43,332 nucleotides of DNA from Nevskia sp. (GTDB lineage Bacteria > Pseudomonadota > Gammaproteobacteria > Nevskiales > Nevskiaceae), in NCBI GenBank assembly GCA_030694365.1, contig JAUXYM010000076.1:1-43332 (forward strand), read 5' to 3'. This document shows positions 21,876 to 41,805 of this stretch, piece by piece. Numbering within the stretch: position 1 is the stretch's first letter; the number at the start of each line of letters is the position of its first letter. The translations under genes and the position numbers were made by a program. The notes below the pieces were generated by a model, which was given only the letters and a program-made list of their open reading frames with translations, was not told the origin of the DNA and ran no database searches.

Positions 21876-21878
21876 TAG

Positions 21879-22297: not shown

Positions 22298-23137
22298 TCA
22301 GCGCAGCATCCGCTTGGTGTTGGCAGCGATCAGCGGCTGGTAGGCCGAACCGAGCAGGCGCACAAGGATGTCCATGAACTTGGCATCCGGGCCGACGACG
22401 ACCCGGCGCGAATTGTTCTCGACCGCCCGCAGGATGATCCGCGCCGCCTTGTTCGCCGAGGTGGTGTTGAGCAGCTTGTCGAACTTGTCCCGCGCCTTTT
22501 CGCCGCTGACGCCGAACAGCTTTTCGGTGCCTTCGGCGATGCGCGCGCTGCGGTTGATCTCGGTGCGGATGCCGCCCGGATGCACGCAGGTGGCGCTGAC
22601 GCCGCAGCTCATCATGTCCAGCTCGATGCGCAGGCTTTCGGTATAGCCGCGCACCGCAAACTTGGTCGCCGAGTAGGCGCCGGTGCCCGGCGTGCCGATC
22701 AGGCCGAACAGGCTCGAGGTGTTGATGATGTGGCCGTCACCGCTGGCCTTCAGATACGGCAGGAACGCCTGGCTGCCGTAGACCACGCCCCAGAAATTGA
22801 TATCGACGATCCACTCGAAATCCTTCTGCGAGATGCTGTCCAGCGGCGCGTTGAGCGCGACGCCGGCGTTGTTGAAAATGAGATTGACGCCGCCGTGATC
22901 CTTGGCGGTCTGCTCGGCCCAGGCGTAGACCGCGTCACGGCTGGCAACGTCGAGCTTGGCGGTGGTGACCTTCACGCCCTTGGCTTTGGCCAATTTCGCA
23001 GTCTCTTCCAGACCCTTGGTGTTGACGTCAGACAGGCTCAGCGCACAGCCCTTGGCGGCAAGCTCCAGCGCCAGCTCGCGGCCCATGCCGGAAGCAGCGC
23101 CGGTGATCGCGGCGACCTTGTTGGCAAATGATTTCAT
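22298..23137 (-). CDS. SDR-family NAD(P)-dependent oxidoreductase
   Basis: 279 residues. Classical SDR: TGAASGMGRELALELA cofactor motif, NNAGVAL, catalytic Ser in INTSSLFGLIGTPGTGAYSATKFAVRGY with the YxxxK, and VHPGGIRTEINRSARIA. The C-terminal extension KAARIILRAVENNSRRVVVGPDAKFMDILVRLLG is common in SDRs paired with flavin monooxygenases. It lies 45 bases downstream of the Baeyer-Villiger gene. It probably oxidises an alcohol to the ketone substrate, or acts on the product (inference). Confidence 0.9.
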   Translation of the reverse strand: MKSFANKVAAITGAASGMGRELALELAAKGCALSLSDVNTKGLEETAKLAKAKGVKVTTAKLDVASRDAVYAWAEQTAKDHGGVNLIFNNAGVALNAPLDSISQKDFEWIVDINFWGVVYGSQAFLPYLKASGDGHIINTSSLFGLIGTPGTGAYSATKFAVRGYTESLRIELDMMSCGVSATCVHPGGIRTEINRSARIAEGTEKLFGVSGEKARDKFDKLLNTTSANKAARIILRAVENNSRRVVVGPDAKFMDILVRLLGSAYQPLIAANTKRMLR

Positions 23138-23182
23138 CGTGTCTTTCTCGTTCTTGTGATTGTTCTTTTAAGGTTCGACGAC

Positions 23183-24682
23183 TCAGGCCGCGACCGTCGC
23201 GGTGTCGCGTTCCAGCCGGTAGGCCGTTGTCGGGAAGCGCCGCGTCTTGCCGCGGTAGATGAAGGTGAAGCCCGGCCACAAGGTGGTGTTCTTGCCGTTG
23301 GCGTCGACGTACCAGCTCTTGCAGCCAGACGTCCAGACGGTTTTCGACAGCTGCCCCTGAAGCCCCAAGTTGAACGTCACCTGGGCATCCGGCTTGACGT
23401 CGACCGCCCGCAACCCCTGCTTGTGCATGGTCTTCAGCGCGTCCATCACGTAGGCGACCTGCGACTCGATCATGAACACCATCGAGTTGTGGCCGAGGCC
23501 GGTGTTCGGGCCGACCAGCATGAAGAAGTTCGGGAAGCCGGCGACTGATAGACCAAGGTAAGCCTCCGGGCCGGTCTTCCAGGCATCGAGCAGATCGACG
23601 CCGCCGGTGCCGAACACGGTGCCGCGCGGCATCGGGTCCTGGGCCTTGAAGCCGGTGCCGTAGATGATCGCGTCAACCGCACGCTCGTTGCCGGCGCTGT
23701 CGATCACCGAGTTGGCTCGCACTTCGACGATGTCATCGGTGATGACCTCGACATTGGCCTGGGCCAGCGCCGGGTAGTAATCGTTGGAGATCAGGATGCG
23801 CTTGCAGCCGATCGTGTAGTCCGGCGTGACCTTGGCGCGCAGCGCCGGGTCCTTGATCTGGCGCTTGATGTGACGGCGAGCGACGCCTTCGACCATGGTC
23901 ATCAGCTTCGGATTGATAACGAAGCCGAGCACCCGCGATTCCAGCATCCAGTAGATCGCCGTGCGGTAAGCGTTCTGCAGCACCGGCAACGCCCTGTACA
24001 GGCGGCGCTCGCGCGGGCCGATCTCGCGATCCGGCTTCGGCATGATCCACGGCGCGGTGCGCTGGTAGAGGTCGACGCGCTTCGCGAGCTTTTGGATCTG
24101 CGGGACAAACTGGATCGCGCTGGCACCGGTGCCGATCACGGCCACGCGCTTGTCGCTGAGGTCGTAGCGGTGATCCCAGTGCGCCGAGTGGAAAGCCTTG
24201 CCTTTGAAGCTATCCAGCCCTTTGACGTTGGGCATCGCCGGATTCGACAGGCCACCCATGCCGGACACCAGCACGCGGCCGCTGAAGCTGCGACCGTCGG
24301 CGGTGTTCACCGTCCAGGTTGCTGAGCCTTCGTCATAACGGGCGTTCTGGACATTGGCGCCAAACACGATGTGGCGGCGCAGGTCGTACTTCGCGGCGCA
24401 CTTTTCGAGATAGGCCTTGATCTCCGGCTGGCGCGCGAACATCCGCGTCCACTCCGGGTTCGGTTCGAACGAGAACGAATAGAGGTGCGACTGCACGTCG
24501 CAGGCACAGCCTGGGTAATGGTTGTCGCGCCAGGTGCCCCCGACATCGTCGCCGCGCTCCAGGATCTGGAAGTCCTCGATGCCCTGCTCACGCAGCCTGA
24601 TCGCCATGCACAGGCCAGCGAAGCCGCTGCCGATGATCAGGATCTGCTTGTTCTCGTTCGGTTTGCCCGCGTCGTATGCCAT
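23183..24682 (-). CDS. Baeyer-Villiger-type flavin monooxygenase
   Basis: 499 residues. FAD motif ILIIGSGFAGLCMA at 14-27, GGTWRDNHYPGCACDVQSH, and the full type I Baeyer-Villiger fingerprint FxGxxxHxxxWD at 159-170 (FKGKAFHSAHWD). The NADPH motif is VAVIGTGASAIQF, and the C-terminal IYGTGFKAQDPMPRG is present. It should insert oxygen next to a ketone carbonyl using NADPH and O2; the ketone is unknown and an AlmA-type alkane role cannot be excluded. The start at 24682 has AGGGGAG 7 bases upstream; a start at 24706 would lie inside an operator. Divergent from the TetR gene. Confidence 0.9.
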   Translation of the reverse strand: MAYDAGKPNENKQILIIGSGFAGLCMAIRLREQGIEDFQILERGDDVGGTWRDNHYPGCACDVQSHLYSFSFEPNPEWTRMFARQPEIKAYLEKCAAKYDLRRHIVFGANVQNARYDEGSATWTVNTADGRSFSGRVLVSGMGGLSNPAMPNVKGLDSFKGKAFHSAHWDHRYDLSDKRVAVIGTGASAIQFVPQIQKLAKRVDLYQRTAPWIMPKPDREIGPRERRLYRALPVLQNAYRTAIYWMLESRVLGFVINPKLMTMVEGVARRHIKRQIKDPALRAKVTPDYTIGCKRILISNDYYPALAQANVEVITDDIVEVRANSVIDSAGNERAVDAIIYGTGFKAQDPMPRGTVFGTGGVDLLDAWKTGPEAYLGLSVAGFPNFFMLVGPNTGLGHNSMVFMIESQVAYVMDALKTMHKQGLRAVDVKPDAQVTFNLGLQGQLSKTVWTSGCKSWYVDANGKNTTLWPGFTFIYRGKTRRFPTTAYRLERDTATVAA

Positions 24683-27574: not shown

Positions 27575-28771
27575 ATGTCATCCACTGCCCGCCACGATTC
27601 CGTGGTCATTGTTTCGATCGCCCGCACGCCGATGGGCGGCCTGCTGGGCATGCTCTCGCCATTCAGCGGTGCCCAGCTCGGTGCGATTGCCGTCAAGGCC
27701 GCCGTCGAGCGTGCCGGCATTGCGCCGGCTGACGTCGAGGAAGCGATCCTCGGCTGCTGCCTGATCGCCGGCCAGGGTCAGGCCCCTGCCCGTCAGGCGG
27801 TCCGTGGTGCGGGCCTGCCCGACTCCGTCGGTGCCACCCAGATCAGCAAGATGTGCGGCTCCGGCCTGAAGGCGGTGATGCTGGCCAATGACCTGATCAA
27901 GGCCGGGACCAACACGATCATGGTGGCGGGTGGCTTCGAGTCGATGACCAATGCCCCGCATCTGCTGCCGAAGGGCCGCAGCGGCGTGCGCTACGGTGCC
28001 ACCACGATCTATGACCACATGGCGATCGACGGTCTGGAAGACGCCTACGAGCGTGGCAAATCGATGGGCCTGTTCGCCGAAACCTGCGCCAGCCAGTACC
28101 GCTTCACGCGCGAGGAACAGGACGCCTTTGCCGTCGCTTCGCTGGCCCGCGCCAAGCTGGCCAACGAGGACGGCACTTTCGATTTCGAGATCACCCCGGT
28201 CGAAGTCACCGGCAAGAGCGGCCCGGAACTGATCCGCCATGACGAGCAGCCCGCCAAAGGCCGTCCGGACAAGATCCCGACCCTGAAAGCCGCCTTCAGC
28301 AAGGACGGCACGATCACCGCCGCAACCTCGTCGAGCATCTCCGACGGTGCCGCTGCCGTGGTCGTGATGTCGGAAGCGGAAAGCAGCAAGCGCGGCCTGA
28401 AACCGCTGGCCCGCATCCTCGGCCATGCCTCGCACGCACGCCTGCCGGGCGAGTTCGCGGTGGCACCGGTGTTCGCCATTCAGGCGCTGCTCGACAAGCT
28501 CGGTTGGAAAGCCGCCGATGTCGATCTCTGGGAAATCAACGAGGCCTTCGCGGTGGTGACGATGGCGGCGATGAAGGAGCACAGCCTGCCGCACGACAAG
28601 GTCAACATCCACGGTGGCGCCTGTGCGCTCGGCCACCCGATCGGCGCCAGTGGCGCGCGCATTCTCGCCACCCTGATCGGCGCGCTGAACAAGACCGGCG
28701 GCAAGCGCGGCATCGCCTCGCTGTGCATCGGCGGCGGTGAAGCGGTGGCGGTGGCGATCGAGATGGTCTGA
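27575..28771 (+). CDS. acetyl-CoA C-acetyltransferase (thiolase)
   Basis: 398-residue thiolase. Nucleophile Cys in QISKMCGSGLKAVMLA, the catalytic His-containing GGACALGHPIGASGAR, and the second Cys in ASLCIGGGEAVAVAIE; NEAFAVV is also present. The length and motifs fit the biosynthetic (PhaA/AtoB) type that condenses two acetyl-CoA, or the reverse cleavage. GGCGATAATCT at 27531-27541, 34 bases before the ATG, resembles a -10 region. Monocistronic, followed by a strong terminator. Confidence 0.94.
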   Translation: MSSTARHDSVVIVSIARTPMGGLLGMLSPFSGAQLGAIAVKAAVERAGIAPADVEEAILGCCLIAGQGQAPARQAVRGAGLPDSVGATQISKMCGSGLKAVMLANDLIKAGTNTIMVAGGFESMTNAPHLLPKGRSGVRYGATTIYDHMAIDGLEDAYERGKSMGLFAETCASQYRFTREEQDAFAVASLARAKLANEDGTFDFEITPVEVTGKSGPELIRHDEQPAKGRPDKIPTLKAAFSKDGTITAATSSSISDGAAAVVVMSEAESSKRGLKPLARILGHASHARLPGEFAVAPVFAIQALLDKLGWKAADVDLWEINEAFAVVTMAAMKEHSLPHDKVNIHGGACALGHPIGASGARILATLIGALNKTGGKRGIASLCIGGGEAVAVAIEMV

Positions 28772-28800
28772 GCACCGTCTGCGCGCCGCACCGCATAGCG

Positions 28801-28831
28801 CGGGCCGATCACCTGATCGGCCCGTTTTTTT
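28801..28831 (+). terminator. intrinsic terminator of the thiolase gene
   Basis: CGGGCCGATC-ACCT-GATCGGCCCG followed by seven T's: a perfect 10-bp stem with U-tract, 30 bases after the thiolase stop. Confidence 0.95.
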
Positions 28832-29152
28832 GTGTCTTGGGTTCAAGCCGAAGGCAGCATGGCCGGCCTTGCCAATCCCATTCGAAAGCGCGATGCGATC
28901 GAGGATCAGAACTGCGTTCTGCGCTCGAAATTCCGGCTTGAGGACAACCGCCGGTTCGATGGCTGCGCGTGCCTCCGCAGAGGCGGAAAACTCCCGGTGC
29001 TATCGAGGTCACGCGCCACTAGAAACACTTGGGTCAGAACTGCGCCAGAGGATTTTTACCACCCCTTGAATTGTGCAATTGCAGCAATAAATGAATTTCT
29101 CAAACCATTGTATTCAATAGATTTAATTAACTTCCGGGAAGCTTTCCCAGAG
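28832..29152. other. non-coding region upstream of xoxF with candidate activator site
   Basis: No convincing gene: the open frames have no family match or ribosome-binding site. Base composition shifts to AT-rich from about 29050. At 29070-29088 ATTG-TGCAATTGCA-GCAAT contains a perfect 10-bp palindrome inside outer ATTG/CAAT arms, 65 bases upstream of the sigma-54 promoter, a suitable place for an enhancer-binding protein (inference). CTTCCGGGAAG (29131-29141) is a second, smaller palindrome near the promoter. Confidence 0.5.
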
Positions 29153-29167
29153 TGGCACGGCTGTTGC
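29153..29167 (+). promoter_or_regulatory. sigma-54 (-24/-12) promoter of xoxF
   Basis: TGGCACGGCTGTTGC matches the RpoN consensus TGGCACG-N4-TTGC at every defined base, with the required 10 bases between GG and GC. It would start a transcript near 29179, leaving a leader of about 185 bases before the xoxF ATG. An activator of the sigma-54 class is encoded 4.5 kb downstream in the same cluster. Confidence 0.88.
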
Positions 29168-29364
29168 GGAAGCGCATGCGGGTTCGGTTATTGAGGGCGA
29201 CACGGCGAGGGGTCAATCGCAGAGTCGATTCAAGTGATACAGCCTCGATGTCCCACCGGGTTTCGAGACAACAAAAATGATGCGCCGGATGAAATGGAGC
29301 TGTGCAGTCCAGGTGTGATCGAACAGCGGCAACCGTAATTTCTTAAATGCGGAGGAGAAAACAA

Positions 29365-31173
29365 ATGAATTTTCGCTACAAGACAAGCATGGCAATGGCG
29401 GCCTTCGCCCTCGTCGCGGCTCCGGGCATCACCCATGCCGCAGCAGATCTCGACAAGGCGATGGCCAATCCCGACAACTGGGCTGCGCAGGCTGGCGACG
29501 AGTACAACCAGCGCTACAGCAAACTGAGCCAGATCACTGACAAGAACGTCAACAAGTTGCAGGTAGCCTGGACCTTCTCGACCGGCGTGCTGCGCGGCCA
29601 TGAGGGCTCCCCACTGGTCATCGACGGCACCATGTATATCCACTCGCCGTTCCCGAACAAGGTGTTCGCGGTCGATCTGGATACCCAGAAGATTCTGTGG
29701 AAGTACGAGCCGAAGCAGGATCCGGCCGTGATTCCGCAGATGTGCTGCGACACGGTCAATCGGGGCCTGGCCTACGGCGACGGCAAGATCCTGCTCCAGC
29801 AGGCTGACTCGAACCTGATCGCGCTCGACGCCAAGACCGGCAAACTGGTGTGGTCGGTGAAGAATGGCGATCCGAAGCTGGGCGCCGTCAACACCAATGC
29901 ACCGCACGTGTTCAAGGACAAGGTCATCACCGGCATCTCGGGCGGTGAATGGGGCGTTCGGGGTTTCCTCGCGGCCTATAATCTGAAGGACGGCAAGCCG
30001 GCCTGGAAGGGCTACAGCGTTGGTCCGGATGCAGAAATGCTGATCGAACCGGGCAAGACCACCACTTGGGAAGATGGCAAGGTCACGCCGGTCAAGAAGG
30101 ACTCCTCGCTGTCGACCTGGAAGGGCGATCAGTGGAAGATCGGCGGCGGCACGACCTGGGGCTGGTACAGCTTCGATCGCGCGTTGAACCAGGTGTTCTA
30201 TGGCACCGGCAATCCGTCGACCTGGAATCCGTCGCAGCGTCCGGGCGACAACAAGTGGTCGATGTCGATCTGGTCGCGTGATGTCGATACCGGCAAGGTC
30301 AAATGGGTCTATCAGATGACCCCCTACGACGAATGGGATTTCGACGGCATCAACGAAATGATCCTGGCCGACATCCCGGTCAAGGGGAAAGCAACGAAGG
30401 CCCTCGTCCATTTCGACCGCAATGGCTTTGGCTACACGCTGGACCGCACCAATGGCGCGCTGCTGGTCGCCGAAAAATACGATCCGGCCGTGAACTGGGC
30501 CACCGGCGTCGACATGAAGACCGGCCGTCCGCAGGTCGTCTCCAAGTACTCCACTGCGCAGAACGGTCCGGACGTCAACACCAAGGGCGTCTGCCCGGCG
30601 GCGTTGGGCACCAAGGACCAGCAGCCGGCGGCGTTCAACCCGAAGACCGGCCTGTTCTACGTGCCGACCAACCACGTCTGCATGGACTATGAGCCGTTCG
30701 CCGTCGATTACACCGCAGGTCAGCCGTATGTCGGCGCGACCCTGGCGATGTACCCGGCGCCGAACAGCCATGGCGGCATGGGCAACTTCACGGTTTGGGA
30801 TGCGGGCGCGGGCAAGATCGTCTGGTCCAAGCCGGAGAAGTTCTCGGTCTGGTCAGGCGCTCTGACCACCGCGGGTGACGTGCTGTTCTACGGCACGCTG
30901 GAAGGCTACCTGAAGGCGGTCAGCCTGAAGGACGGCAAGGAGCTTTGGAAGTTCAAGACTCCGTCCGGCATCATCGGCAACGTGTTCACCTACGTGCACA
31001 AGGGCAAGCAGTACGTTGGCGTCTACTCGGGCATTGGCGGCTGGGCCGGTATCGGCATGGCAGCAGGCCTCGAGAAGGATGCGGACGGCCTTGGTGCAGT
31101 GGGCGGCTATCGCGAACTGAGCCAGTACACGGAACTGGGCGGCTCTTTGACCGTCTTCGCCCTCAGCGAATAA
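29365..31173 (+). CDS. xoxF: XoxF-type lanthanide-dependent PQQ methanol dehydrogenase
   Basis: 602 residues, secreted (signal peptide to about residue 25, ending THA). Periplasmic eight-bladed quinoprotein that oxidises methanol (possibly other short alcohols) and passes electrons to cytochrome c. The vicinal disulfide Cys127-Cys128 is in [11 protein letters not shown]. Metal ligands are Glu195 (GGEWGVRG), Asn283 (GTGNPSTWN) and catalytic Asp325 in DEWDFDGIN. Asp327, two residues on, is the extra Asp found in lanthanide enzymes where calcium MxaF has Ala. [10 protein letters not shown] and [12 protein letters not shown] are XoxF-like. The ATG at 29365 follows GGAGGAG by 7 bases. No pqq or mxa genes are in the window. 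Confidence 0.93.
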
Positions 31174-31216
31174 ACGGTCACCGGGTCCACGGACCCAGCA
31201 GGTTCTGAAGTACCGG

Positions 31217-31254
31217 GTGGTGCCACCGACGAACTCGGTGGTGCCACTTTTTTT
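31217..31254 (+). terminator. intrinsic terminator after xoxF
   Basis: GTGGTGCCACCGA and TCGGTGGTGCCAC pair over 13 bp (two G-U wobbles) and are followed by seven T's, 43 bases after the xoxF stop. It would separate xoxF from the protease gene, at least partly. Confidence 0.85.
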
Positions 31255-31298
31255 GCCCTGCAGCTTCCTATTCAGCATCTCGGCCTACCGACCACGCC

Positions 31299-32372
31299 AT
31301 GACTACCGCAGGCCCTTGGTGTCCTGGCACCCGTTCGATCGCCCTTTGGCTGATCGCAATGCTTCTGTCGAGCGGCGTCCGCGCAGCGGCGAGTGATATC
31401 AACCGCGAGCGCTTCAATCCGATCGTCGCCAGCATCGTCAAGATCGAAGCCGTGACCGACAGTGGCAGCTATTCGCTGGGCAGCGGCGTGGCGGTTCAGC
31501 CCAGCCGTTTTGTCACTAGTTGCCACGTCACGGCACAGGCCGTGTCGATCACCGTGCTGTATCAAGGACTGCGCTGGCCGGTCATTCGACAGCGCGCGAA
31601 CACTGTTCGCGATCTGTGCATTCTTCAGGTTCGCGGGCTCGACGACCTGGTTCCCGTGCCACGCGGCAAAGTCAGCGATCTGCGCGTGGGAACCGAGGTC
31701 GCTGCGATCGGCTACACCTTGGGCACCGGGCTGGCGACTCAGGTCGGCACCGTGCAGGCACTTCATCCGCTTGCCGACGGCACCGTGATTCAAAGCGCCA
31801 CTTACTTCAACTCCGGCGCCAGCGGCGGCGGTTTGTTCCAGCTGGACGGTCGACTGGTCGGCATCCTGACTTTTCGACTCAAGGGTGCGGAGGCTTACTA
31901 CTTCTCGATTCCGGTTGACTGGATCGAATCGGAACTCGCCCGCAGCGATCCCTTCGAACCGGTCGGCAAGCTCGCTGGCGCTTCACCGTTCTGGGCGCAG
32001 CCGCCCGAGCGCCTGCCATTCTTCATGCGCGCCGCGACCCTGCAAGCGCGCATGCTGTGGCAAGACTTGATCAGCCTCAGCAATCAATGGGCTGAAGCCG
32101 AACCGGGCAATGCCGAAGCCTGGTTCATGCAAGCTCAGGCCTTGACCCGTCTTGATCGCCCAAGCGAAGCCGTGGCTGCCTACGAACACGCTGTGCGCCT
32201 CGACGCGCATCTTGCGCAGGCCTGGTTCCAGCTCGGCCAGCTGAAGATCAGGCTCGGCCAGCAGAAGGAGATCAAGCGCATCGTCCAAAAACTCGAACCC
32301 TTGGATCCGGCGCTGGCCTCGGAACTGGCGACCCGAAACAGCCAGGGCCAACCAGCATCGCCGCCGCCTTGA
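31299..32372 (+). CDS. periplasmic trypsin-like serine protease with TPR C-terminus
   Basis: 357 residues. N-terminal hydrophobic signal (about 12-30). Trypsin-like S1C fold with triad His76 (FVTSCHVT), Asp105 (NTVRDLCIL) and Ser175 (NSGASGGGLF), as in DegP-type enzymes but without PDZ domains. A Cys precedes the His (SCH) and another follows the Asp (DLC), a possible disulfide. From about 250 to 330 two TPR-like repeats follow (AEAWFMQAQALTRLDRPSEAVAAYEHAV and AQAWFQLGQLKIRLGQ). It lies between xoxF and the activator gene; a quality-control role for the quinoprotein system is speculative. Confidence 0.85.
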   Translation: MTTAGPWCPGTRSIALWLIAMLLSSGVRAAASDINRERFNPIVASIVKIEAVTDSGSYSLGSGVAVQPSRFVTSCHVTAQAVSITVLYQGLRWPVIRQRANTVRDLCILQVRGLDDLVPVPRGKVSDLRVGTEVAAIGYTLGTGLATQVGTVQALHPLADGTVIQSATYFNSGASGGGLFQLDGRLVGILTFRLKGAEAYYFSIPVDWIESELARSDPFEPVGKLAGASPFWAQPPERLPFFMRAATLQARMLWQDLISLSNQWAEAEPGNAEAWFMQAQALTRLDRPSEAVAAYEHAVRLDAHLAQAWFQLGQLKIRLGQQKEIKRIVQKLEPLDPALASELATRNSQGQPASPPP

Positions 32373-32434
32373 ATTGCCAATTTTCGCTGCAACACCAGAA
32401 CTCCATTTCCAAGAAATTTCCCTCCGGAACCGCC

Positions 32435-33106
32435 ATGAACAAACTGTTGGCAAGCCTTGGTATCGCGCTGAGCTTCGTTGCAGCACCTGCCGTATTCGCG
32501 GCAGATGATTACTCGCCTGCCGAACAGCGGGTATTCCTCGATCAGCACCTGGCCAATGTGCCGAAAGCCGCGACCATCGAATATCGCTACACGCAGAGCG
32601 GCAAGCCTGAGGACAGCTTCGAGGACGTCGTCAAGCTCAAGGTCGGCGAAGGCAGCGCGGACCAGCGAACGCTCGCCGTGGAGTTCCTGACCGGCGCCCA
32701 CAAGATCGAACTGCCGAGCGTCGAAGGCGGCGTCGGCAACCCGGTGATCCTCTACTTCCTCGAACATGACATCCGCAGCATGCACGATCGTCTCGGCGGC
32801 CAGCAGGCCTACTTCCGCAAGCGCATCCGTCTGGCGCTGGCGGATGTCGCCGCCACGGTCAAGCCGATCAAGCTGAGCTACAAGGGCAAGACCGTCGATG
32901 GCAACGAAGTGACGATCGAGCCCTACGTGAATGATTCGCTGAAGGATCGCTTCGGTCCGTTCGCGAGCAAAGCCTATGTCTTCACCTTCTCCACTTCGGT
33001 ACCGGGCGGCGTCTACGAGATTCGTACCAGCACCGCAGCCGCCACCGGCAGCGCAGCGGCGCCAGCCATCAGCACAACGATGAGGATCAGCGAAGGCAAG
33101 TTCTGA
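32435..33106 (+). CDS. periplasmic protein of unknown function
   Basis: 223 residues with a clear signal peptide (MNKLLASLGIALSFVAAPAVFA, cleavage near 22). The mature part is beta-rich with ATIEYRYTQSG, DVVKLKVGEG, VILYFLEHDIRSM, GQQAYFRKRIRLALAD, SYKGKTVDGNEVTIEPYVND and YVFTFSTSVPGGVYEI. No Cys, heme motif or known domain was recognised. It starts 62 bases after the protease gene on the same strand. Its place inside a methanol-oxidation cluster suggests a role in that pathway, but nothing in the sequence names it. Confidence 0.8.
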   Translation: MNKLLASLGIALSFVAAPAVFAADDYSPAEQRVFLDQHLANVPKAATIEYRYTQSGKPEDSFEDVVKLKVGEGSADQRTLAVEFLTGAHKIELPSVEGGVGNPVILYFLEHDIRSMHDRLGGQQAYFRKRIRLALADVAATVKPIKLSYKGKTVDGNEVTIEPYVNDSLKDRFGPFASKAYVFTFSTSVPGGVYEIRTSTAAATGSAAAPAISTTMRISEGKF

Positions 33107-33268
33107 GCGGCCATCCATCGGCATCCGCCCAAGCAGCGGCGCACGCAGCGGCACAGCATTGGGTCAATATCGAAACAGGCTCTGTGGAGCCTGCTCATGA
33201 ACGCCGTCAAGCAGTCTTTTCATTGTTGTTTTCATTGAAAATTTAGTACCCAAACACGATTGCGACGA

Positions 33269-33283
33269 TGGCACGCGATCTGC
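33269..33283 (+). promoter_or_regulatory. probable sigma-54 promoter upstream of the activator gene
   Basis: TGGCACGCGATCTGC has the -24 TGGCACG and a -12 CTGC (one change from TTGC) at correct spacing. A near-palindrome TTTTCATTGAAAA is at 33229-33241, and TTTTCATTG is directly repeated at 33217 and 33229 (12-bp period), possible activator sites. The activator may thus control its own gene. Confidence 0.65.
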
Positions 33284-33827
33284 AGTGCGAGGCATCGAAG
33301 GGCGATTCAAAAGAGTCGCCCAAGTCCGCTCGATACCCGTTCCCCGCCATGTTGCCTAACGCTCGTCGCCTCTGCCGACTGATGTCTCCACTGCGAATGG
33401 ACGCTGTGGAGACATTCCCGCTGACTGGAGTTCGATCGTGGTGAAGAAGCGCGGCAGTCGCAAAAGTCCAATCCGGCATGCCAGCGTTGATCCGCCGGCT
33501 GCGGACGCAAATCGCAAGCGCAGCGACGCGGAATCGCGGCTCGATCAGACGCCCGCACACTCGCTCGCACCGGATTACTGGATGGCAACTCCCGGACGTC
33601 GTCAGGACCTTCCGTCAGACCCCTTCAAGCCTGATTCTTCAAGGGTTCCGGCACCCGGAAACCTATTGTTGTACCGCGCACCTGACGGGGGTAGTCTTCA
33701 GTCGCTCGGTGTCGCCCTGCCCGCTGTCCCGGATGATTTTTCCTCTGACGCGTTTCGCAAGGTGCCCGAGCACCAAGACGATAAAGACTGCGGGCCTACG
33801 GGCCCGACAGCGCGAGAGGAGGAACAG
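33284..33827 (+). other. long leader of the sigma-54 activator gene
   Basis: About 540 bases. A frame in phase with the activator is open from a GTG at 33438 with a weak GGAG, and would add 130 Pro/Asp/Arg-rich residues with no domain; family members do not have this part. CGGGCC-TACG-GGCCCG (33791-33806) forms a hairpin 9 bases before the strong ribosome-binding site and could affect translation. No independent gene is seen. Confidence 0.5.
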
Positions 33828-35876
33828 ATGCTGACCACGCAAAAAGCGGCGCGTCATGCCAGCTTGGTCGAATCGGCTGTTCAGGGCATAGCCCCGGCGT
33901 CCGAAATCGATCATCTGGTCCGTCATTCATGGACCCGGTGTATCGAGAATTACGCACTCGATCCACTGACGCCCAAGAAGGCCACTATCGTCGATCGCCC
34001 GGAACTGCAGGCGCGGCGCGAGCAGCACGGCCTGTTGCTGTCGATTGCCCGAGTCGAATTGCTGGGCCTGCGCAACCGGCTGCAGCAGAATGACTTCGGA
34101 ATCATGTTGACCGATCAGGACGGCGTGATCCTCCATTACGTCGGCGATCCGGGTTTCGCCAATACCGCCAAGCGCAGCGGCCTGCGCGAAGGCGCGATAT
34201 GGAGCGAACGCGAGCTGGGCACCAACGGCATGGGCACCTGCATCATCGAGCAGCGCTCGGTAATCATCCATCAGAATGATCACTTTCTCGCCCAGAACAC
34301 CGAACTGACCTGCTCGGCAGCACCGATCTTCGACATGCAGGGCAGAGTTGTCGCCGCGCTCGATATCTCAGGCAGCTTCAGCCGCTCGCAGACGCATACG
34401 CTGGCGTTGGTCGAGATTGCCGCGCAGAACATCGAAAACCGGGCACTGCTGGAATCCTGCAAGCGCCATTACATGCTGCGTTTCCATCGCCAGGCGGAGT
34501 TCATCTCCACGCCGGGAGAAGGCATCGTCGCTTTCGATGACAATGGCATGATCGTCGGCGCCAATCGCAGCGCCCTCGAACTGCTCGGCCTCTCCCATCA
34601 TCGCGCCCTGTGCGGCCAGGCACTGGAAGCGATCTTCGACACCACCATGTCGACCCAGATGCAGCTCGCCGCGCGCCGCGCCTTTCGCGCTGCGCCGCTG
34701 GTGGTGCGCAGCTCGCAGACCAAGCTCTGGAGCGCGATCCAGCCTCCGGAGCGCGATGCTCGCAGCGAAACTCGTCGGGAGCCGATCGAGGCACCGGCAC
34801 CCTCGCCCTGCGGTCCGCTGGCGACCCTGGAGCATGGCGATCAGCAGATGGCGAACAACATCCGCATCGTTCGCCGGGTGCTCGATCGCGACATCCCGGT
34901 GCTGCTGCTCGGAGAAACCGGCACCGGCAAGGGCTGCTTCGCGAAAGCGATTCACGCCGCCAGCCGACGGGCCGACAAGCCGTTCGTGACGGTCAACTGC
35001 GCGGCCATTCCCGAAACCCTGATCGAGTCCGAGCTGTTCGGCTACAAGGCCGGCGCGTTCACCGGTGCGACCCGTGAAGGTCATCCGGGCCGGGTGGTGC
35101 AGGCCAATGGCGGCACGCTGTTTCTCGATGAGATCGGCGACATGCCGTTGCCGCTGCAGGTGCGCCTGCTGTCGGTGATCGAGGATCGCGAAGTGATGCC
35201 GCTGGGTGGCTCGAAAGCGATTCCGGTGGACATCCGCATCATCAGCGCCACCCACTGCGACCTGATGCAGCAGGTGCGCGACCGCCGCTTCCGCGAAGAC
35301 CTGTATTACCGCCTGAACGGTCTGGCGCTGCGCATGCCGGCGCTCCGTGACCGCCAGGACAGCCGCGAACTGGTGCTGAGCCTGATTCGCGAAGAATCCC
35401 GTGGCCGGGCGCCGATCGATGTCGATGACGCCGTGATGCGACGGCTGCTGCAGTCGCCGTGGCCGGGCAACATCCGGCAACTGCGCAATGTGCTGCGCAC
35501 GATGATCGCCATGTGTGAAGGCGATTGCCTGACGCTCGCCGATTTCAACGAAGAATGGCTGGGCACCAGCGTCTTGCCGGCGCTCACCGCGCCGAGCCCG
35601 GCGGATCTTTCCGATCTCGATGGCGACGACGTGCTCGGCGATGCCGAACGCGATGCGCTGCGCCGCGTGCTCGAAAGCTGCCGCTGGAACGTCAGCGCGG
35701 CAGCCGTGCAACTGCATGTCAGCCGCAAGACGCTGTACCGGAAGATGTTCCGGCACGGCATCACTCGCCGCGAACTGCGTGAAGCCGCTCCCCAAAACGC
35801 TGCGGCCGATGGCGTCGGCGCAGCCGATGGCAGCGCCTCGTCCCGCCCGCAGACCCCACCGTTGTTCAAGCACTGA
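33828..35876 (+). CDS. sigma-54-dependent activator, AcoR family (GAF-PAS-AAA+-Fis)
   Basis: 682 residues from the ATG at 33828, chosen for AGAGGAGG 5 bases upstream and because HLVRHSWTRCIENYALDP then falls at the usual AcoR position. Order: GAF sensor (about 70-200, with GTNGMGTC at 131-138), PAS-like segment (about 223-285), AAA+ domain with Walker A GETGTGKG (362-369), ESELFGYKAGAFTGA with the sigma-54 contact GAFTGA at 409-414, Walker B GGTLFLDEIGD, R-finger region RFREDLYYRLNG, and a Fis-type HTH near 620-645 (NVSAAAVQLHVSRKTLYRKM). It has no receiver domain, so it likely senses a small molecule directly. Likely target: xoxF. Confidence 0.93.
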   Translation: MLTTQKAARHASLVESAVQGIAPASEIDHLVRHSWTRCIENYALDPLTPKKATIVDRPELQARREQHGLLLSIARVELLGLRNRLQQNDFGIMLTDQDGVILHYVGDPGFANTAKRSGLREGAIWSERELGTNGMGTCIIEQRSVIIHQNDHFLAQNTELTCSAAPIFDMQGRVVAALDISGSFSRSQTHTLALVEIAAQNIENRALLESCKRHYMLRFHRQAEFISTPGEGIVAFDDNGMIVGANRSALELLGLSHHRALCGQALEAIFDTTMSTQMQLAARRAFRAAPLVVRSSQTKLWSAIQPPERDARSETRREPIEAPAPSPCGPLATLEHGDQQMANNIRIVRRVLDRDIPVLLLGETGTGKGCFAKAIHAASRRADKPFVTVNCAAIPETLIESELFGYKAGAFTGATREGHPGRVVQANGGTLFLDEIGDMPLPLQVRLLSVIEDREVMPLGGSKAIPVDIRIISATHCDLMQQVRDRRFREDLYYRLNGLALRMPALRDRQDSRELVLSLIREESRGRAPIDVDDAVMRRLLQSPWPGNIRQLRNVLRTMIAMCEGDCLTLADFNEEWLGTSVLPALTAPSPADLSDLDGDDVLGDAERDALRRVLESCRWNVSAAAVQLHVSRKTLYRKMFRHGITRRELREAAPQNAAADGVGAADGSASSRPQTPPLFKH

Positions 35877-35996
35877 ACGGCAGCAGGCCCGCCACCCGGT
35901 GACGAGTCCGCGCCGTCGAAGCCGTTGTCGATTCGCTGCACCGGGGCCACGGCCCTACCCCAAGCCCCACTCCCACCCAAGACAAGGAGTTGAATC

Positions 35997-37106
35997 ATGG
36001 ATGTCCGCGCCGCTGTTGCTTTCGAAGCCGGCAAGCCGCTGTCGATCGAAACCGTGCAACTCGATGGCCCGCGTGCTGGCGAGGTGCTGGTCGAGATCAA
36101 GGCCACCGGCCTCTGCCATACCGATAAATTCACCCTGTCCGGCGATGATCCGGAAGGCATGTTCCCGGTGATCCTCGGCCACGAGGGTGCCGGCATCGTT
36201 GTCGACGTAGGCCCCGGCGTCACCTCGGTCAAGAAAGGCGACCACGTCATCCCGCTGTACACACCGGAATGCCGCGAGTGCGATTACTGCCTGTCCGGCA
36301 AGACCAACCTGTGCCAGAAGATCCGCGCCACCCAGGGCCGTGGCCTGATGCCGGACGGCAACAGCCGCTTCAGCTTCCAGGGCAAGCCGGTGCTGCATTA
36401 CATGGGCTGCTCGACCTTCGCCAACTACACGGTGCTGCCGGAAATCTCCGTCGCCAAGGTTCGTGAAGACGCCCCGTTCGACAAGATCTGCTACATCGGC
36501 TGCGGCGTGACCACCGGCATCGGCGCGGTGCTGTTCACCGCCAAGGTCGAGTACGGCAGCAACTGCATCGTCTTCGGCCTCGGCGGCATCGGCCTGAACG
36601 TGATCCAGGGCCTGAAGATGGTCGGTGCCAACATGATCATCGGCATCGACATCAATCCGGGCCGCGAAGCCATGGCCCGCAAATTCGGCATGACCCACTT
36701 CGTCAACCCGAAAGAAGTTCAGGGCGACCTCGTGTCCTACCTCGTCGAACTTACCAAGGGCGGCGCCGACCACACTTTCGAGTGCACCGGCAACGTCAAG
36801 CTGATGCGCCAGGCGCTGGAGTGCTGCCACAAGGGCTGGGGCATGTCGACGATCATCGGCGTGGCACCGGCCGGTGCCGAAATCTCGACCCGTCCGTTCC
36901 AACTGGTCACCGGCCGTCGCTGGATCGGCTCGGCCTTCGGCCGTGCCAAGGGCCGCACCGACGTGCCGAAGATCGTTGACTGGTACATGGACAAGAAGAT
37001 CAACATCGATGATCTGATCACCCACACGATGCCGCTGGAAAAGATCAACGAAGGCTTCGATCTGATGACCCGCGGTGAGTCCATTCGCGGCGTGGTGCTC
37101 TACTGA
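35997..37106 (+). CDS. frmA: S-(hydroxymethyl)glutathione dehydrogenase (class III alcohol dehydrogenase)
   Basis: 369-residue zinc alcohol dehydrogenase oxidising the formaldehyde-glutathione adduct to S-formylglutathione with NAD. Catalytic zinc ligands are Cys40 (ATGLCHTD), His62 (LGHEGAG) and the Cys of [11 protein letters not shown]. The structural zinc is bound by Cys92/95/98/106. The Rossmann motif is [22 protein letters not shown] 9 bases before the ATG. The stop overlaps the fghA start by one base. It removes the formaldehyde made by XoxF in the cytoplasm. Also called adhC or flhA. Confidence 0.95.
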
Positions 37107-37954
37107 TGTCGGGAGCGATCGAAAAGCGCAGCGACCAGGCCTGTTTCGGCGGCCGCATGGGCTTCTACACCCATGCCTCGACCGAGACCGGCACGGCGAT
37201 GAAGTTCGGCGTCTACCTGCCGCCGCAGGCCGCCACGCGCCGCGTGCCGGCGCTGTATTACCTCGCCGGCCTGACCTGCACCGAAGAGACCTTCCTGATC
37301 AAGGCCGGCGCGCAGCGCATCGCGGCCGAATTCGGGATTGCGCTGGTCACCTGCGATACCAGCCCGCGCGGTTTGAATCTGCCGGGCGAAGCGGATAGCT
37401 GGGACTTTGGTCTGGCCGCCGGTTTCTATCTCGATGCCACCAACGAGCCCTGGAAGCAGAACTACCGGATGGGCTCGTACATCAACGAAGAGCTGCCGGC
37501 TTTGATCGAAGCCAACTTCCCGATAGATACGGCCAAGCGCGGCATCTTCGGCCATTCGATGGGTGGCCACGGTGCCTTGGTCACGGCACTGCGCAACCCG
37601 ACGCGCTGGCAATCGGTGTCGGCGTTCGCGCCGATCTCGAACCCGGTCGCGGTGCCCTGGGGCCAGAAAGCATTTGCAAACTATCTGGGCCCGGATGCCT
37701 CTACTTGGGAGCAGTACGACGCCAGCCTGCTGATCAGGAAGAATCCCTACCCCGGTCTGCTGCTGGTCGACCAGGGACTGGCCGACAACTTCCTGAACCG
37801 CGAACTGAAGCCGGAAAATCTCGACGCGGCGGCACGTGCTTCCGGGCAGCGTCTGAGCTTGCGTCTGCAGGCCGACTACGACCACTCGTACTGGTTCATC
37901 CAGAGCTTCATCGCCGATCATCTTGCCCACCACGCGAGCCAGCTCGGCCTCTGA
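37106..37954 (+). CDS. fghA: S-formylglutathione hydrolase
   Basis: 282-residue esterase-D-type alpha/beta hydrolase that releases formate and glutathione. Nucleophile Ser151 in IFGHSMGGHGAL, the Asp in LLLVDQGLADNFL and the His in DYDHSYWFI complete the triad. The N-terminal GRMGFYTHASTETGTAMKFGVYLPP and YYLAGLTCTEETF are standard for the family. It follows frmA with a one-base stop/start overlap. No formate dehydrogenase is in the window. Confidence 0.95.
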   Translation: MSGAIEKRSDQACFGGRMGFYTHASTETGTAMKFGVYLPPQAATRRVPALYYLAGLTCTEETFLIKAGAQRIAAEFGIALVTCDTSPRGLNLPGEADSWDFGLAAGFYLDATNEPWKQNYRMGSYINEELPALIEANFPIDTAKRGIFGHSMGGHGALVTALRNPTRWQSVSAFAPISNPVAVPWGQKAFANYLGPDASTWEQYDASLLIRKNPYPGLLLVDQGLADNFLNRELKPENLDAAARASGQRLSLRLQADYDHSYWFIQSFIADHLAHHASQLGL

Positions 37955-38119
37955 TCAACACCGATACACGCACCGATAAAAACAACCATTGGCACCGTGC
38001 CTGACGCCGTACATCGGCACCGGTGTCAGCCCAAGGGAAATAACGGGAATTAAGGACCGGTTCAGCGCCAGCCACGCGTACCAGTCCTGCGAGCAATTAC
38101 TAATCTGGAGGAATTCGAC

Positions 38120-38521
38120 ATGCAGCACCGCGTACTGTTATCCCTGATCGCTGCAGCCGGCCTGACCGGCGGAGCGATCACTACAGCGTCGGCAGCCGAT
38201 GCGCCGCTGTACACCGTTGTCGATGGCACCAAGGTTGATGCCGATACCCTGAAAGGCTTCAAGACCTGGCGCGCCGCTGCCTGCGATCGCTGCCACGGTC
38301 CGAACCAGGAAGGCCTGGTAGGCCCCTCGCTGGTCGAAAGCCTGAAGGTGCTGACCAAGGACGAGTTCAAGACCACGGTCACCAATGGCCGCCTCGAAAA
38401 AGGCATGCCCAGCTTCAGCACCAGCGCTGCTGTCATCGACAATCTCGACAAGCTGTACGCCTATCTGAAAGGCCGCTCCGACGGCAAGATCACCGCTGCC
38501 AAAGTGACGGGCATCGAATGA
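38120..38521 (+). CDS. c-type cytochrome, likely XoxF electron acceptor
   Basis: 133 residues with a signal peptide ending TASA (about 25). One heme site, Cys55-x-x-Cys58-His59 (ACDRCHGPN), with the likely axial Met96 in EKGMPSFS. Class I cytochrome with one heme; smaller than typical XoxG/cL proteins. RBS GGAGG 8 bases before the ATG. It overlaps the binding-protein gene by 4 bases (ATGA). Its location between the formaldehyde genes and a XoxJ-like gene supports a role as XoxG, but that is inferred. Confidence 0.88.
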   Translation: MQHRVLLSLIAAAGLTGGAITTASAADAPLYTVVDGTKVDADTLKGFKTWRAAACDRCHGPNQEGLVGPSLVESLKVLTKDEFKTTVTNGRLEKGMPSFSTSAAVIDNLDKLYAYLKGRSDGKITAAKVTGIE

Positions 38522-39456
38522 TGCCGCTGCCGCAGGTCGGCGGTTCCTGGATCAGCGCCTTGATCGTGGCAGTCCGGAACACCCGGCCTGCGGCAGTTGC
38601 CGCTGCGGCGCTGCTGCTGGTCGGCCTCGCGGGCCTGCTGCCGGTGCAGGCCCAAGCTCAAGCTCAGGATGCCGAGCGCAAGGCGTTCCGCATCTGTCGT
38701 GATCCGAACAATCTGCCGTTCCAGAACGCCAAGGGGGAGGGCTTCGAGGACAAGATCGCCGAGCTGTTTGCGGCCGATCTCGGCCTCAAGGTGCTAGCCT
38801 TCGACTACCCCGCCCGCTTCAACTTCATCCGCAACACGCTGCGCTTCAAGCTGCCCGGTGACGATTTCCCCTGCGACATCGTCATGGACGTGCCGGCAGG
38901 TTTCAGCCAGGGCACGGCGTCGACCAAGCCCTACTACCGCTCGACCTATGCGATGGCGTTCCCGCGCGGCAAGGCGCTGGCCGGCATCACATCGGTGGAG
39001 CAGTTCCTGGCCTTGCCGCAGGAAAAGCTGGCCAAGCTCAAGATCGGCGTCATCGACAAATCGCCAGCGTCGGACTGGCTGGCCAAGCGTGGCCTGCTCG
39101 AAATCGGCGTGCCTTATCGCGTGCTGGTGGCCGATCCGGATCAGAGTTCCGGCGGCATCATCGAAGCCGATCTGATCGCCGGCAAGCTCGATGCCGTGAT
39201 CGTCTGGGGGCCGATTGCCGGCTACTACGCGAAGCGTTACCCGGAAGCCGATCTGCTGGTGCTGCCGATGCGGTCCGAGCACAACGTCCGTTTCGATTTC
39301 GAGATCGCGATGGCGGTACGCATTGCCGACAAGACCCTGAAGCAGACGCTCGATGATCTGATTGCGCGCAACCAGAACAAGATCGATGCGGTGCTGAAAG
39401 ACTATGGCGTGCCCTTGCTGCCGCCGGCTCCTGCGGCACCAGCGGCTGCCAACTGA
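38518..39456 (+). CDS. XoxJ/MxaJ-like periplasmic binding protein (quinoprotein-associated)
   Basis: 312 residues. Membrane/signal segment about 25-46. Family signature FRICRDPNNLPFQNAKGEGFEDKIAELFA, DFPCDIVMDVPAGFSQG, YYRSTYAMAFPRG and DLIAGKLDAVIVWGPIAGYYA. These proteins look like amino-acid ABC binding proteins but travel with quinoprotein dehydrogenases without any permease; MxaJ/XoxJ is thought to help enzyme maturation or activation. No ABC permease or ATPase gene lies nearby, which supports this. The ATG overlaps the cytochrome stop. Confidence 0.92.
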   Translation: MMPLPQVGGSWISALIVAVRNTRPAAVAAAALLLVGLAGLLPVQAQAQAQDAERKAFRICRDPNNLPFQNAKGEGFEDKIAELFAADLGLKVLAFDYPARFNFIRNTLRFKLPGDDFPCDIVMDVPAGFSQGTASTKPYYRSTYAMAFPRGKALAGITSVEQFLALPQEKLAKLKIGVIDKSPASDWLAKRGLLEIGVPYRVLVADPDQSSGGIIEADLIAGKLDAVIVWGPIAGYYAKRYPEADLLVLPMRSEHNVRFDFEIAMAVRIADKTLKQTLDDLIARNQNKIDAVLKDYGVPLLPPAPAAPAAAN

Positions 39457-39513
39457 ATCGACGCTCGCGCTGATCCGGCGCGGTCGTTGCCTGAACCCTC
39501 ATCGAGACTGCCC

Positions 39514-39885
39514 ATGACCACCCGCAAGCTGAGCAGCACGCTGTCCGCCGCGTTGCTGACCTTGGCTATCGCCGCGCCGCCTGCGGCCACTGCCGCAGTC
39601 AACGATTACCCGACCGTCGACCGCGTCGAATTCGTGCATCTGTGCCAGCGCGAAAATGCCGACAGACCACCGCAGGAAATGGTCTACAAGTGCTCCTGCG
39701 TGATCGACAAGCTGGCGGCCGATCTTCCCTACGAGGATTTCGTCGAAGCCTCGACGGCCTACTACGCGTCGACGATTGCCGGTGAACGTGGCCAGGTCAT
39801 GCGCAACGAGCGCGTAGCCAAGAACCTGGCCGACCAGTTTCGCAGCCTGCTCGGCAAGGCGCGCAAGTCCTGCTTCATCGGCTGA
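39514..39885 (+). CDS. small secreted protein with CxC motif, quinoprotein cluster
   Basis: 123 residues with a signal peptide (about 1-28, ending TAA). Four Cys in the mature part: HLCQRE, YKCSCVIDKLAAD and the C-terminal KSCFIG. The start MTTRKLSS at 39514 is preferred over one nine codons earlier. No ribosome-binding site is obvious. Similar-sized unnamed proteins occur in alcohol-dehydrogenase quinoprotein clusters (from memory of the Pseudomonas ped/exa regions). Function unknown; a thiol/disulfide role with its neighbours is possible. Confidence 0.82.
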   Translation: MTTRKLSSTLSAALLTLAIAAPPAATAAVNDYPTVDRVEFVHLCQRENADRPPQEMVYKCSCVIDKLAADLPYEDFVEASTAYYASTIAGERGQVMRNERVAKNLADQFRSLLGKARKSCFIG

Positions 39886-39891
39886 GATCAG

Positions 39892-40842
39892 ATGAACCGG
39901 TCGCGGGCCGCGGGGCGATCGACGCTGGCGTCGATGGTCCTGCTGGCCAGCGTGCTGCTCCCGCAGACGGCGGCAGCAGCGTCTGCGTTCAGTATCGAAC
40001 GAGTCGCCGAAGGGGTTTACCTCCATCGCGGCCAGCAGCAGGACGCCACGGCGGCCAATGGCGGCGATATCGCCAACATCGGCTACATCGTCGGCGATCG
40101 CTGCGTGGCGGTGATCGACAGCGGCGGCACGCTGGCCATCGGCACCGCGCTGCGCGACGCCATCCGCCGCGAAACTGCGAAGCCGATCTGTTACCTCATC
40201 CACACCCACGTCCACCCGGATCACAGCTTCGGCGACCCGGCGTTCGCCGACCCGGCGACGATGTTCGTCGCCCACGCCGAGTACCCGGCAGCGCTGGCAG
40301 CTCGGCGCGACGGTTTCCTCGCCAATCTGCGGTACACGCTCGGCGCAGCTGCAGACGGCAGTGGCAGCACCGTGCCGACCCTGCTGGTTCAGGACCGTGA
40401 AACGGTCGACCTCGGCAACCGGTGCCTCAGCCTGCAAGCCTGGCCGACCGCCCACACCAACAACGACCTGACCGTGTTCGACGAGCGAACCAAAACCTTG
40501 TGGACCGGCGATCTGCTGTTTGTCGACCGCATCCCGGTGGTCGATGGCCGCGCCACCGGCTGGCTGAAGGTGATGGCCGCATTGCGCGCCCTGAAGCCCG
40601 CCCATCTGGTGCCCGGTCACGGCCCGGTCCAGCACAACGTCGACGCCGCATTCGGGCCTCAGCAGCAATATCTGGATCAGCTTATAAACAGCGTTGGTGC
40701 AGCGCTGAAAGCCGGGACCACACTGGCGCAGACTGTCGACACCCTCGGGCGTGAGCCGCCGCAGAAAGCCTGGCTGCTGTTTGACGACTACCACCGCCGC
40801 AACCTGACGGCGGTCTACACCGAACTCGAGTGGGAGGATTGA
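39892..40842 (+). CDS. quinoprotein relay system zinc metallohydrolase (MBL fold)
   Basis: 316 residues, secreted (signal to about 30, AAAA). Metallo-beta-lactamase fold: HTHVHPDH at 104-111, the Asp of DSGG, TAHTNNDLTVFDERTKTLWTGDLLF with the third-ligand His and the Asp, and LVPGHGPVQ with the last His, so both zinc sites look intact. It matches the type described as a 'quinoprotein relay system' hydrolase that travels with PQQ dehydrogenases and SoxYZ-like carriers. The substrate is unknown. It starts 6 bases after the CxC gene and ends 2 bases before the SoxYZ-like gene. Confidence 0.92.
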   Translation: MNRSRAAGRSTLASMVLLASVLLPQTAAAASAFSIERVAEGVYLHRGQQQDATAANGGDIANIGYIVGDRCVAVIDSGGTLAIGTALRDAIRRETAKPICYLIHTHVHPDHSFGDPAFADPATMFVAHAEYPAALAARRDGFLANLRYTLGAAADGSGSTVPTLLVQDRETVDLGNRCLSLQAWPTAHTNNDLTVFDERTKTLWTGDLLFVDRIPVVDGRATGWLKVMAALRALKPAHLVPGHGPVQHNVDAAFGPQQQYLDQLINSVGAALKAGTTLAQTVDTLGREPPQKAWLLFDDYHRRNLTAVYTELEWED

Positions 40843-40844
40843 CC

Positions 40845-41723
40845 ATGTTCCCGTTTCAGCGCCTGTCCGGCATTGCCCCGAGCATTGCCCTTGTCGGCCT
40901 CGCGGCCGGCTTCGCTTTAGCCACCCCTGCGGTCGTCGCCCAGTCGACGCCCCAAGCGCCTGCTCAGATTTCGCCAGCGCCGATCTGGCCCAAGGTCCGC
41001 AACAGCCTGTTCAGCACCCGGACGATCGACGAGAACGCCGGCGAGATCATCGTGCTCGAGGCGCCGAACCGCGCCGAGGATGCCTCGACCGTGCCGATCG
41101 CGATCCGCACCCAGATCATGCAGTCGCCGTCCCGTTACGTGCAGAAGCTCTACCTGCTGGTCGACAACAATCCTTCGCCGATCGCCGCCGTGTTCGAGCT
41201 GACGCCGGACAGCGGCCGGGCCGACATCGAAACCCGCATCCGCATCGAGCAGTACACCGACGTGCGAGCGATCGCCGAGTTGAACGACGGTTCGCTGTAC
41301 ATGGCCAGTCGCTACGTCAAAGCTTCCGGCGGCTGCTCGGCACCGGCCGGCAAGGATCCGAAAGAAGCCCTGCGCAATGCCGGACGGATCAAGTTCAAGG
41401 TCGATGGTCCGCTGGCAGCCGGCAAGCCGGCGGCCGTGCAGCTTGCGATCAGCCATCCGAATGCCTCGGGGCTGGTACTTGATCAGGTCAGCCGCCTGTA
41501 TGAACCCGCGTACTACGTGCGCAAGCTGACTGTCCGCTATGGCGACAAAGCGGTGCTGACCGCCGATATCGATTTCTCGATCAGCGAAAACCCCAACTTC
41601 CGCTTCTATTTCCTGCCCAGCAGCGACGGTGCGCTATATGCCGACGTGGTCGACACCAAGGACTTGAGCTTCAGCAGCGAAGTCGCCGTCAAGCTGGGCG
41701 GTATCGCCAGCAACACCCGGTAG
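40845..41723 (+). CDS. quinoprotein-associated SoxYZ-like carrier protein
   Basis: 292 residues with a signal peptide (about 1-32). The first half resembles SoxY and ends YVKASGGCSAPAGKD with Cys164 in a GGC arm; the second half resembles SoxZ (AAVQLAISHPNASGLVL, YYVRKLTVRYGDKAVLTADIDFSISENPNFRFYF). In sulfur oxidation the SoxY GGCGG Cys carries substrates covalently; here the Cys lies mid-protein because SoxY and SoxZ parts are fused. GGAGG upstream favours the ATG at 40845 over a GTG at 40830. Probably works with the MBL protein. Confidence 0.93.
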   Translation: MFPFQRLSGIAPSIALVGLAAGFALATPAVVAQSTPQAPAQISPAPIWPKVRNSLFSTRTIDENAGEIIVLEAPNRAEDASTVPIAIRTQIMQSPSRYVQKLYLLVDNNPSPIAAVFELTPDSGRADIETRIRIEQYTDVRAIAELNDGSLYMASRYVKASGGCSAPAGKDPKEALRNAGRIKFKVDGPLAAGKPAAVQLAISHPNASGLVLDQVSRLYEPAYYVRKLTVRYGDKAVLTADIDFSISENPNFRFYFLPSSDGALYADVVDTKDLSFSSEVAVKLGGIASNTR

Positions 41724-41805
41724 TCGTCTGGCGTGCGAGCAGGCGCGCTGCAGATCGCCGTGATCAGCCTGATACGATCACCCTAACTTGCCCCGGAATC
41801 ATCCC

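Follow-up and report, generated by a model that had tools for sequence, protein, structure and literature searches.

Locus and predicted promoters of xoxF and acoR

The window analysed here is a 43,332-nucleotide stretch that makes up the entire contig C94 of a Nevskia-like genome (G000; 89% complete). It carries a cluster in which xoxF, predicted to encode a lanthanide-type methanol dehydrogenase, lies on the same strand as acoR, the gene of an AcoR-type sigma-54 activator. The gene order is xoxF, a trypsin-like/TPR protein, an unknown protein, acoR, frmA, frmB, a xoxG-like cytochrome, a xoxJ-like protein, a metallo-hydrolase and a SoxYZ-like carrier. The features that bear on the control of xoxF and acoR are the following.

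29030..29047, + strand: candidate activator site of xoxF, dyad TGGGTC-N6-GCGCCA, 123 bp upstream of the -24 element; same dyad at acoR
29070..29088, + strand: imperfect palindrome ATTGTGC-N4-GCA(G)CAAT, ATTGTGCAATTGCAGCAAT, perhaps the site of a second regulator
29098..29110, + strand: tentative integration host factor (IHF)-like TCAA-N4-TTG between dyad and promoter; core in 6/9 xoxF loci
29153-29167, + strand: predicted sigma-54 -24/-12 promoter of xoxF, TGGCACGGCTGTTGC, exact consensus
29365..31173, + strand: xoxF, lanthanide-type pyrroloquinoline quinone (PQQ) methanol dehydrogenase, predicted from domain and family models, structure-entry matches and the metal motif EWDFDGIN
33160..33177, + strand: candidate activator site TGGGTC-N6-GAAACA, 109 bp upstream of the acoR -24 element
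33269-33283, + strand: second predicted sigma-54 -24/-12 promoter, TGGCACGCGATCTGC, 559 nt before the acoR ATG; kept in 9/9 loci
33669..33697, + strand: sigma-70-like TTGTAC-N17-TAGTCT in the acoR leader, a proposed basal promoter, at -159 in 9/9 loci
33828..35876, + strand: acoR, one-component sigma-54 activator with GAF, PAS, AAA+ and HTH_8 domains (Pfam); start placed from the ribosome-binding site and the lack of upstream coding signal

Compared with solved quinoproteins, the xoxF product matched 6DAM (957 bits) and 6OC5 (929 bits), both named lanthanide-dependent XoxF, ahead of 4TQO (667 bits). Lanthanide enzymes are marked by the extra aspartate of a DxD motif, which is present in EWDFDGIN, and we predict that the product is a lanthanide-type XoxF. 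In nine Nevskia genomes it is the sole XoxF match at E<=1e-100, accompanied in eight of them by one ethanol-type quinoprotein of 41-42% identity.

AcoR contains the GAFTGA motif, and a receiver domain is not among its Pfam matches. The protein resembles the DhaR/AcoR enhancer-binding proteins in domain order and in the match of residues 28-283 to the DhaR sensor structure 4LRX, but differs from them in its predicted targets (xoxF, the frm genes and acoR) and in its score of 304.1 bits with the NCBIfam DhaR equivalog, which is below the cut-off of 551 and does not support membership in DhaR. It is 83% identical to an orthologue in the metagenome-assembled genome Nevskia sp. D1_Bin_22 (L008). 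RpoN was found in 11/11 genomes checked out of the 16 with an AcoR orthologue, and in G000 itself three homologues of RpoN, on contigs C1, C11 and C60, score above the family cut-off.

Searched on both strands, the window has a single zero-mismatch TGGCAC-N5-TTGC, the -24/-12 element at xoxF. Matches with up to one mismatch number seven against 4.59 expected, a count reached by 18 of 100 shuffles, and for the form TGGCAY-N5-YTGC the count is three, where Markov sequences give about 0.7; taken alone, the promoter match is thus weak evidence. Comparison of nine orthologous xoxF loci (XoxF 93-100% identical) gives it more weight, since the element is kept in 9/9, with a single C-to-T change in G015, and 14 of its 15 columns are invariant, whereas the spacer directly upstream (29089-29131) has 5 such columns of 43, a contrast that lifts it above chance. 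Invariance is also high at 29022-29047 (20/26) and at the palindrome 29070-29088 (12/19), compared with 0/21 at 29048-29068 and 143/400 overall. The first-pass annotation, made from the window alone, had proposed a full-consensus -24/-12 promoter at this position, a palindrome upstream of it and a GAFTGA-containing AcoR-family activator in the same cluster; conservation, domain content and motif bear out all three, the palindrome in imperfect form. Immediately upstream of the -24 element lies another palindrome (29131-29141, CTTCCGGGAAG), whose CCGGGAA is kept in 9/9 xoxF loci.

It is extremely unlikely, in our estimate, that the -24/-12 element is not a working promoter and that a two-component system acting on a sigma-70 promoter drives xoxF instead, as it does in model methylotrophs. 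Two-component control is what has been described elsewhere (PMC11845868) and single -24/-12 matches are not rare, but the xoxF element is conserved throughout the nine loci at a fixed enhancer spacing, and a sigma-70 scan of 28700-41800, though crude, found no promoter.

The second -24/-12 element, upstream of acoR, was absent from the first-pass annotation, as was the dyad common to both promoters; its counterparts lie 548-664 nt before the acoR ATG in 9/9 genomes. Between this promoter and the gene, the leader at 33543-33827 is open in the acoR frame in 9/9 genomes and contains nucleotide blocks conserved in all nine. An N-terminal extension of AcoR (an 812-aa protein starting at GTG 33438) was suggested by this open frame, which aligns as peptide. 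It was ruled out for the last 95 codons (33543-33827) by comparison with the first 200 codons of the AcoR body, the ratio of nonsynonymous to synonymous differences (pN/pS) being 0.38-0.95 in 11 pairs against 0.00-0.16 in the body. The three codon positions also vary equally in the leader (51, 55 and 60 of 87), compared with 45, 18 and 143 of 200 in the body. The start is most likely ATG 33828 rather than GTG 33438, because an AGGAGG ribosome-binding site precedes it and the leader is without coding signal over those 95 codons. A conserved leader block would fit the proposed sigma-70-like promoter, an interpretation set beside a stricter sigma-70 scan that lists no promoter at the acoR leader. 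An Rfam search of the leader returned nothing but a chance microRNA match located elsewhere, and a predicted consensus fold was computed for it.

A dyad common to both promoters and its distribution

Both -24/-12 elements are preceded by a dyad of the form TGGGTC-N6-GnnnCA. Its distance to the -24 element at xoxF is 123 bp in five loci and 122 bp in four, and at acoR 109 bp in four, 99 bp in four and 100 bp in one, the 99 and 109 classes being about one helical turn apart. In G015 the dyads of both promoters carry the identical G-to-A change (TGAGTC). Altogether, 25 distinct dyad-promoter pairs were collected: nine at xoxF, nine at acoR and seven at further promoters with spacings of 122-123 bp.

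We searched for the composite pattern TGGGTC-N6-GNNNCA-N78..108-TGGCAY-N5-YTGC, with the reversed pattern as control, and it was absent from 60 Markov copies of the window. Among 61 relatives, eight genomes have two matches each, at xoxF and acoR, and G004, G007 and G035 have one each; the other 50 have none, and the reversed control gave 0. Within the genus Nevskia, 18 genomes were compared, and the nine with an AcoR orthologue (>=83%) are also the nine with a XoxF orthologue (>=93%). At the level of the order, the composite was found in 13 of 85 genomes (reversed control 0) and an AcoR orthologue (57-100%, E<=1e-180) in 16 of the same 85, and all composites fall in genomes with the orthologue (13/16 with versus 0/69 without; Fisher 7.6e-13). 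The AcoR genomes without a strict composite are G015, which has relaxed matches at both promoters, G062 and G065. In a class-wide sample of 369 genomes the composite occurs in G000 and one other (G128), that is in 1/368 others, and the reversed control matched once. A co-occurrence search in related genomes had been the first-pass suggestion for checking its proposal, and within the order the composite proved confined to genomes with an AcoR orthologue.

The pattern also extends to genomes with a different enzyme. The quinoproteins of G061, G066, G035 and G004 are 45-47% identical to the XoxF of the window and carry QWDYDGIN in 4/4; that of G066 has as its best structure-entry match 7O6Z (895 bits), reported to be a XoxF1-type enzyme (PMC8546591). 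The composite lies upstream of this other-clade xoxF in G066, G061 and G004, and upstream of the frmA-acoR operon in G066 and of frmA-acoR in G035. In G007 the one composite is near a contig end, where the gene it would serve is not seen, and a relaxed composite (TGTGTC, 122 bp) precedes frmA-acoR. Judged from these loci, the sigma-54/dyad wiring appears to have outlasted the exchange of XoxF for another clade. In G066, the xoxJ-like binding protein (L205 8579-10234) is fused to ankyrin repeats.

The palindrome at 29070-29088 has a different distribution, its relaxed form occurring in 8/9 xoxF upstream regions and in 0/9 acoR upstream regions, and for this reason it may serve another factor. 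As a regulon-wide site it is unsupported, being missing from the acoR regions and present in exact form in 4 of 61 genomes, two of these at xoxF, although the exact-form search is a weak test because the window copy, with one extra base, escapes the exact pattern. That AcoR acts at xoxF mainly through this palindrome, with the TGGGTC dyad belonging to another factor, would agree with its conservation and its usual enhancer distance; we consider it very unlikely, since the palindrome is absent from every acoR upstream region and the dyad is found at both promoters and in relatives of other genera. This palindrome is unlikely to be where the activator mainly binds, and the dyad at 29030-29047 is the better candidate, because the same dyad recurs at the acoR promoter and in these relatives.

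Neighbouring genes and AcoR-like loci elsewhere

The remaining annotated features of the cluster are listed below.

31215..31249, + strand: terminator-like hairpin 3' of xoxF, 15 pairs with a T tail, the longest of ten sites in the terminator scan; the ten compare with 10.6 in shuffles, so that sites of this class are no more frequent than expected by chance
35997..37106, + strand: frmA, S-(hydroxymethyl)glutathione dehydrogenase (TIGR02818 above cut-off)
37106..37954, + strand: frmB, S-formylglutathione hydrolase (TIGR02821 above cut-off)
38120..38521, + strand: xoxG-like c-type cytochrome (Cytochrome_CBB3 domain; methanol-metabolism cytochrome model below cut-off)
38518..39456, + strand: xoxJ-like periplasmic binding protein (TIGR03871 above cut-off)
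39892..41723, + strand: quinoprotein-associated metallo-hydrolase and SoxYZ-like carrier genes (TIGR04559 and TIGR04557 above cut-off)

Between xoxF and acoR lie the genes of the trypsin-like/TPR protein (31299-32372) and of a protein without Pfam or NCBIfam match (32435-33106); both were detected in the seven Nevskia loci covering that stretch, and in the remaining two loci part of the second was detected. Elsewhere in the window, 17262-20648 encodes a large protein with transglutaminase-like and DUF2126 amidoligase domains.

In a wider set of 80 AcoR-like loci, 13 had a PQQ-dehydrogenase match. With L008 excluded, a -24/-12 element (score >=6) was found within 450 nt of the quinoprotein gene in 7 of 12 such loci from other taxa (L010, L012, L017, L019, L021, L026 and L055), where about 0.05 would be expected per 450 nt; L011, L018, L030 and L042 have none, and in L020 the gene start was not located. 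The enzymes of these loci are diverse and, on a quick look, do not have binding sites in common, and the wider association of AcoR-like activators with quinoproteins is only suggestive.

The second AcoR-like match of G000 lies on C32 (44% identity, E<=1e-100), and its gene (21544-23535, + strand) is about 6 kb from that of a 42% ethanol-type quinoprotein (13562-15178, - strand). In G005, G011 and G015 (L162 12469, L163 6169 and L164 12307), a -24/-12 element is found about 130 nt before the second AcoR-like gene, with a TGTC...GACA dyad 105-109 bp further upstream, and this second activator may be self-activating through a different site.

A predicted sigma-54 circuit for methanol oxidation

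We propose, with a probability of roughly 0.8, that periplasmic methanol oxidation is served by a sigma-54 module with two promoters, made up of xoxF and acoR and governed by the GAF/PAS activator AcoR. The first-pass proposal that xoxF is under sigma-54 control by the clustered AcoR is well supported by the comparative evidence, whereas the palindrome gives way to the dyad as the better candidate for the activator site. A sigma-54-dependent xoxF activated by some other enhancer-binding protein, with the clustered AcoR serving only its own gene and the formaldehyde genes, is unlikely. Besides AcoR, G000 encodes at least one further protein of this type at E<=1e-100, that of C32, and the 29070 palindrome is a conserved element at xoxF only, but the same dyad stands at the xoxF and acoR promoters in 9/9 genomes and, within the order, only genomes carrying this AcoR have the composite.

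Several observations weigh against the AcoR module. The dyad is imperfect, and its distance from the -24 element at acoR departs from that at xoxF by 14 or 24 bp, neither of them a whole number of helical turns. The Fisher value overstates independence because the genomes are related and three genera hold all composites, and since AcoR and XoxF occur together, co-occurrence alone cannot name the binder. Several other AcoR-like activators exist in G000. G062, in which the contig ends inside frmA, and G065 carry AcoR and no composite, and the xoxF of G035 has a -24/-12 element but no strict dyad. Lastly, six XoxF proteins (66-68%) from another family of the order are encoded by genes without a -24/-12 element within 450 nt, so that sigma-54 control does not extend to xoxF genes in general.

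In the proposed circuit, AcoR would bind the TGGGTC-N6-GnnnCA dyad, which lies some 100-125 bp before each of the two -24/-12 promoters, and its sensor region would bind a cytoplasmic signal, which may be methanol, formaldehyde or the formaldehyde-glutathione adduct. Signal-bound AcoR would then open RNA polymerase-sigma-54 at both promoters, one leading to xoxF and the other raising acoR, probably frmA-frmB and perhaps xoxGJ, while the sigma-70-like element nearer acoR would keep a basal level of activator. IHF may assist at the xoxF promoter, where TCAA-N4-TTG is presumably an IHF-like core. The outcome would be a positive loop in which methanol oxidation and formaldehyde removal are raised together. 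What is read directly from the sequence is the pair of -24/-12 sites, the common dyad, their conservation and spacing, and the restriction to AcoR-orthologue genomes within the order; no finding of our analysis points to metal sensing.

Related kinds of regulation are known. The Azospirillum brasilense exaA gene, likewise a sigma-54-dependent PQQ alcohol dehydrogenase gene, answers to a LuxR-type response regulator and encodes an ethanol-type enzyme (Singh et al. 2017, via PMC6115532 and PMC12826043), unlike the GAF/PAS one-component activator and XoxF considered here. C1 (one-carbon) and alkane oxidation are under sigma-54 control by BmoR, which answers to alcohols (Thauera butanivorans butane monooxygenase), and by MmoR/RpoN (soluble methane monooxygenase; PMC8784404, PMC5874634), but their targets are monooxygenases and not quinoproteins. 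Lanthanide- or calcium-type quinoprotein genes are controlled by the two-component systems MxbDM/MxcQE, MxaY/MxaB and PedS2/PedR2 (PMC11845868, PMC6115532), which pair membrane sensor kinases with response regulators, whereas the predicted system here has a cytoplasmic one-component activator with sigma-54. A GAF-modulated sigma-54 regulator gene is drawn in methanol dehydrogenase clusters in a figure of PMC11845868, so that such a regulator beside these genes has already been noticed, but the legend assigns it no promoter, site, function or species. The literature matches listed included no report that sigma-54 or an AcoR-type activator controls xoxF, a provisional result, with most subscription journals outside the search. 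The kind of regulation is known, and the xoxF target, the site and the regulon appear new.

According to a review, the regulation of xoxF requires further studies and species-specificity is expected (PMC11845868); the present locus offers a concrete xoxF circuit with named, directly testable sites. If the activator answers methanol or formaldehyde, activator and promoter would together make a compact C1 biosensor. More tentatively, and at somewhat less than even odds in our view, a cytoplasmic one-component C1 sensor, with methanol, formaldehyde or S-hydroxymethylglutathione bound at the GAF domain, would replace the membrane two-component switch and tie XoxF production to the disposal of formaldehyde in a sigma-54 regulon that is very small and activates itself, with the wiring kept through the exchange of XoxF clades. 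Because the matches at E<=1e-100 in the nine Nevskia genomes are this XoxF only, with the one ethanol-type quinoprotein in eight, it would make sense for these bacteria to regulate the enzyme through its substrate or product and not through the choice between calcium and lanthanide.

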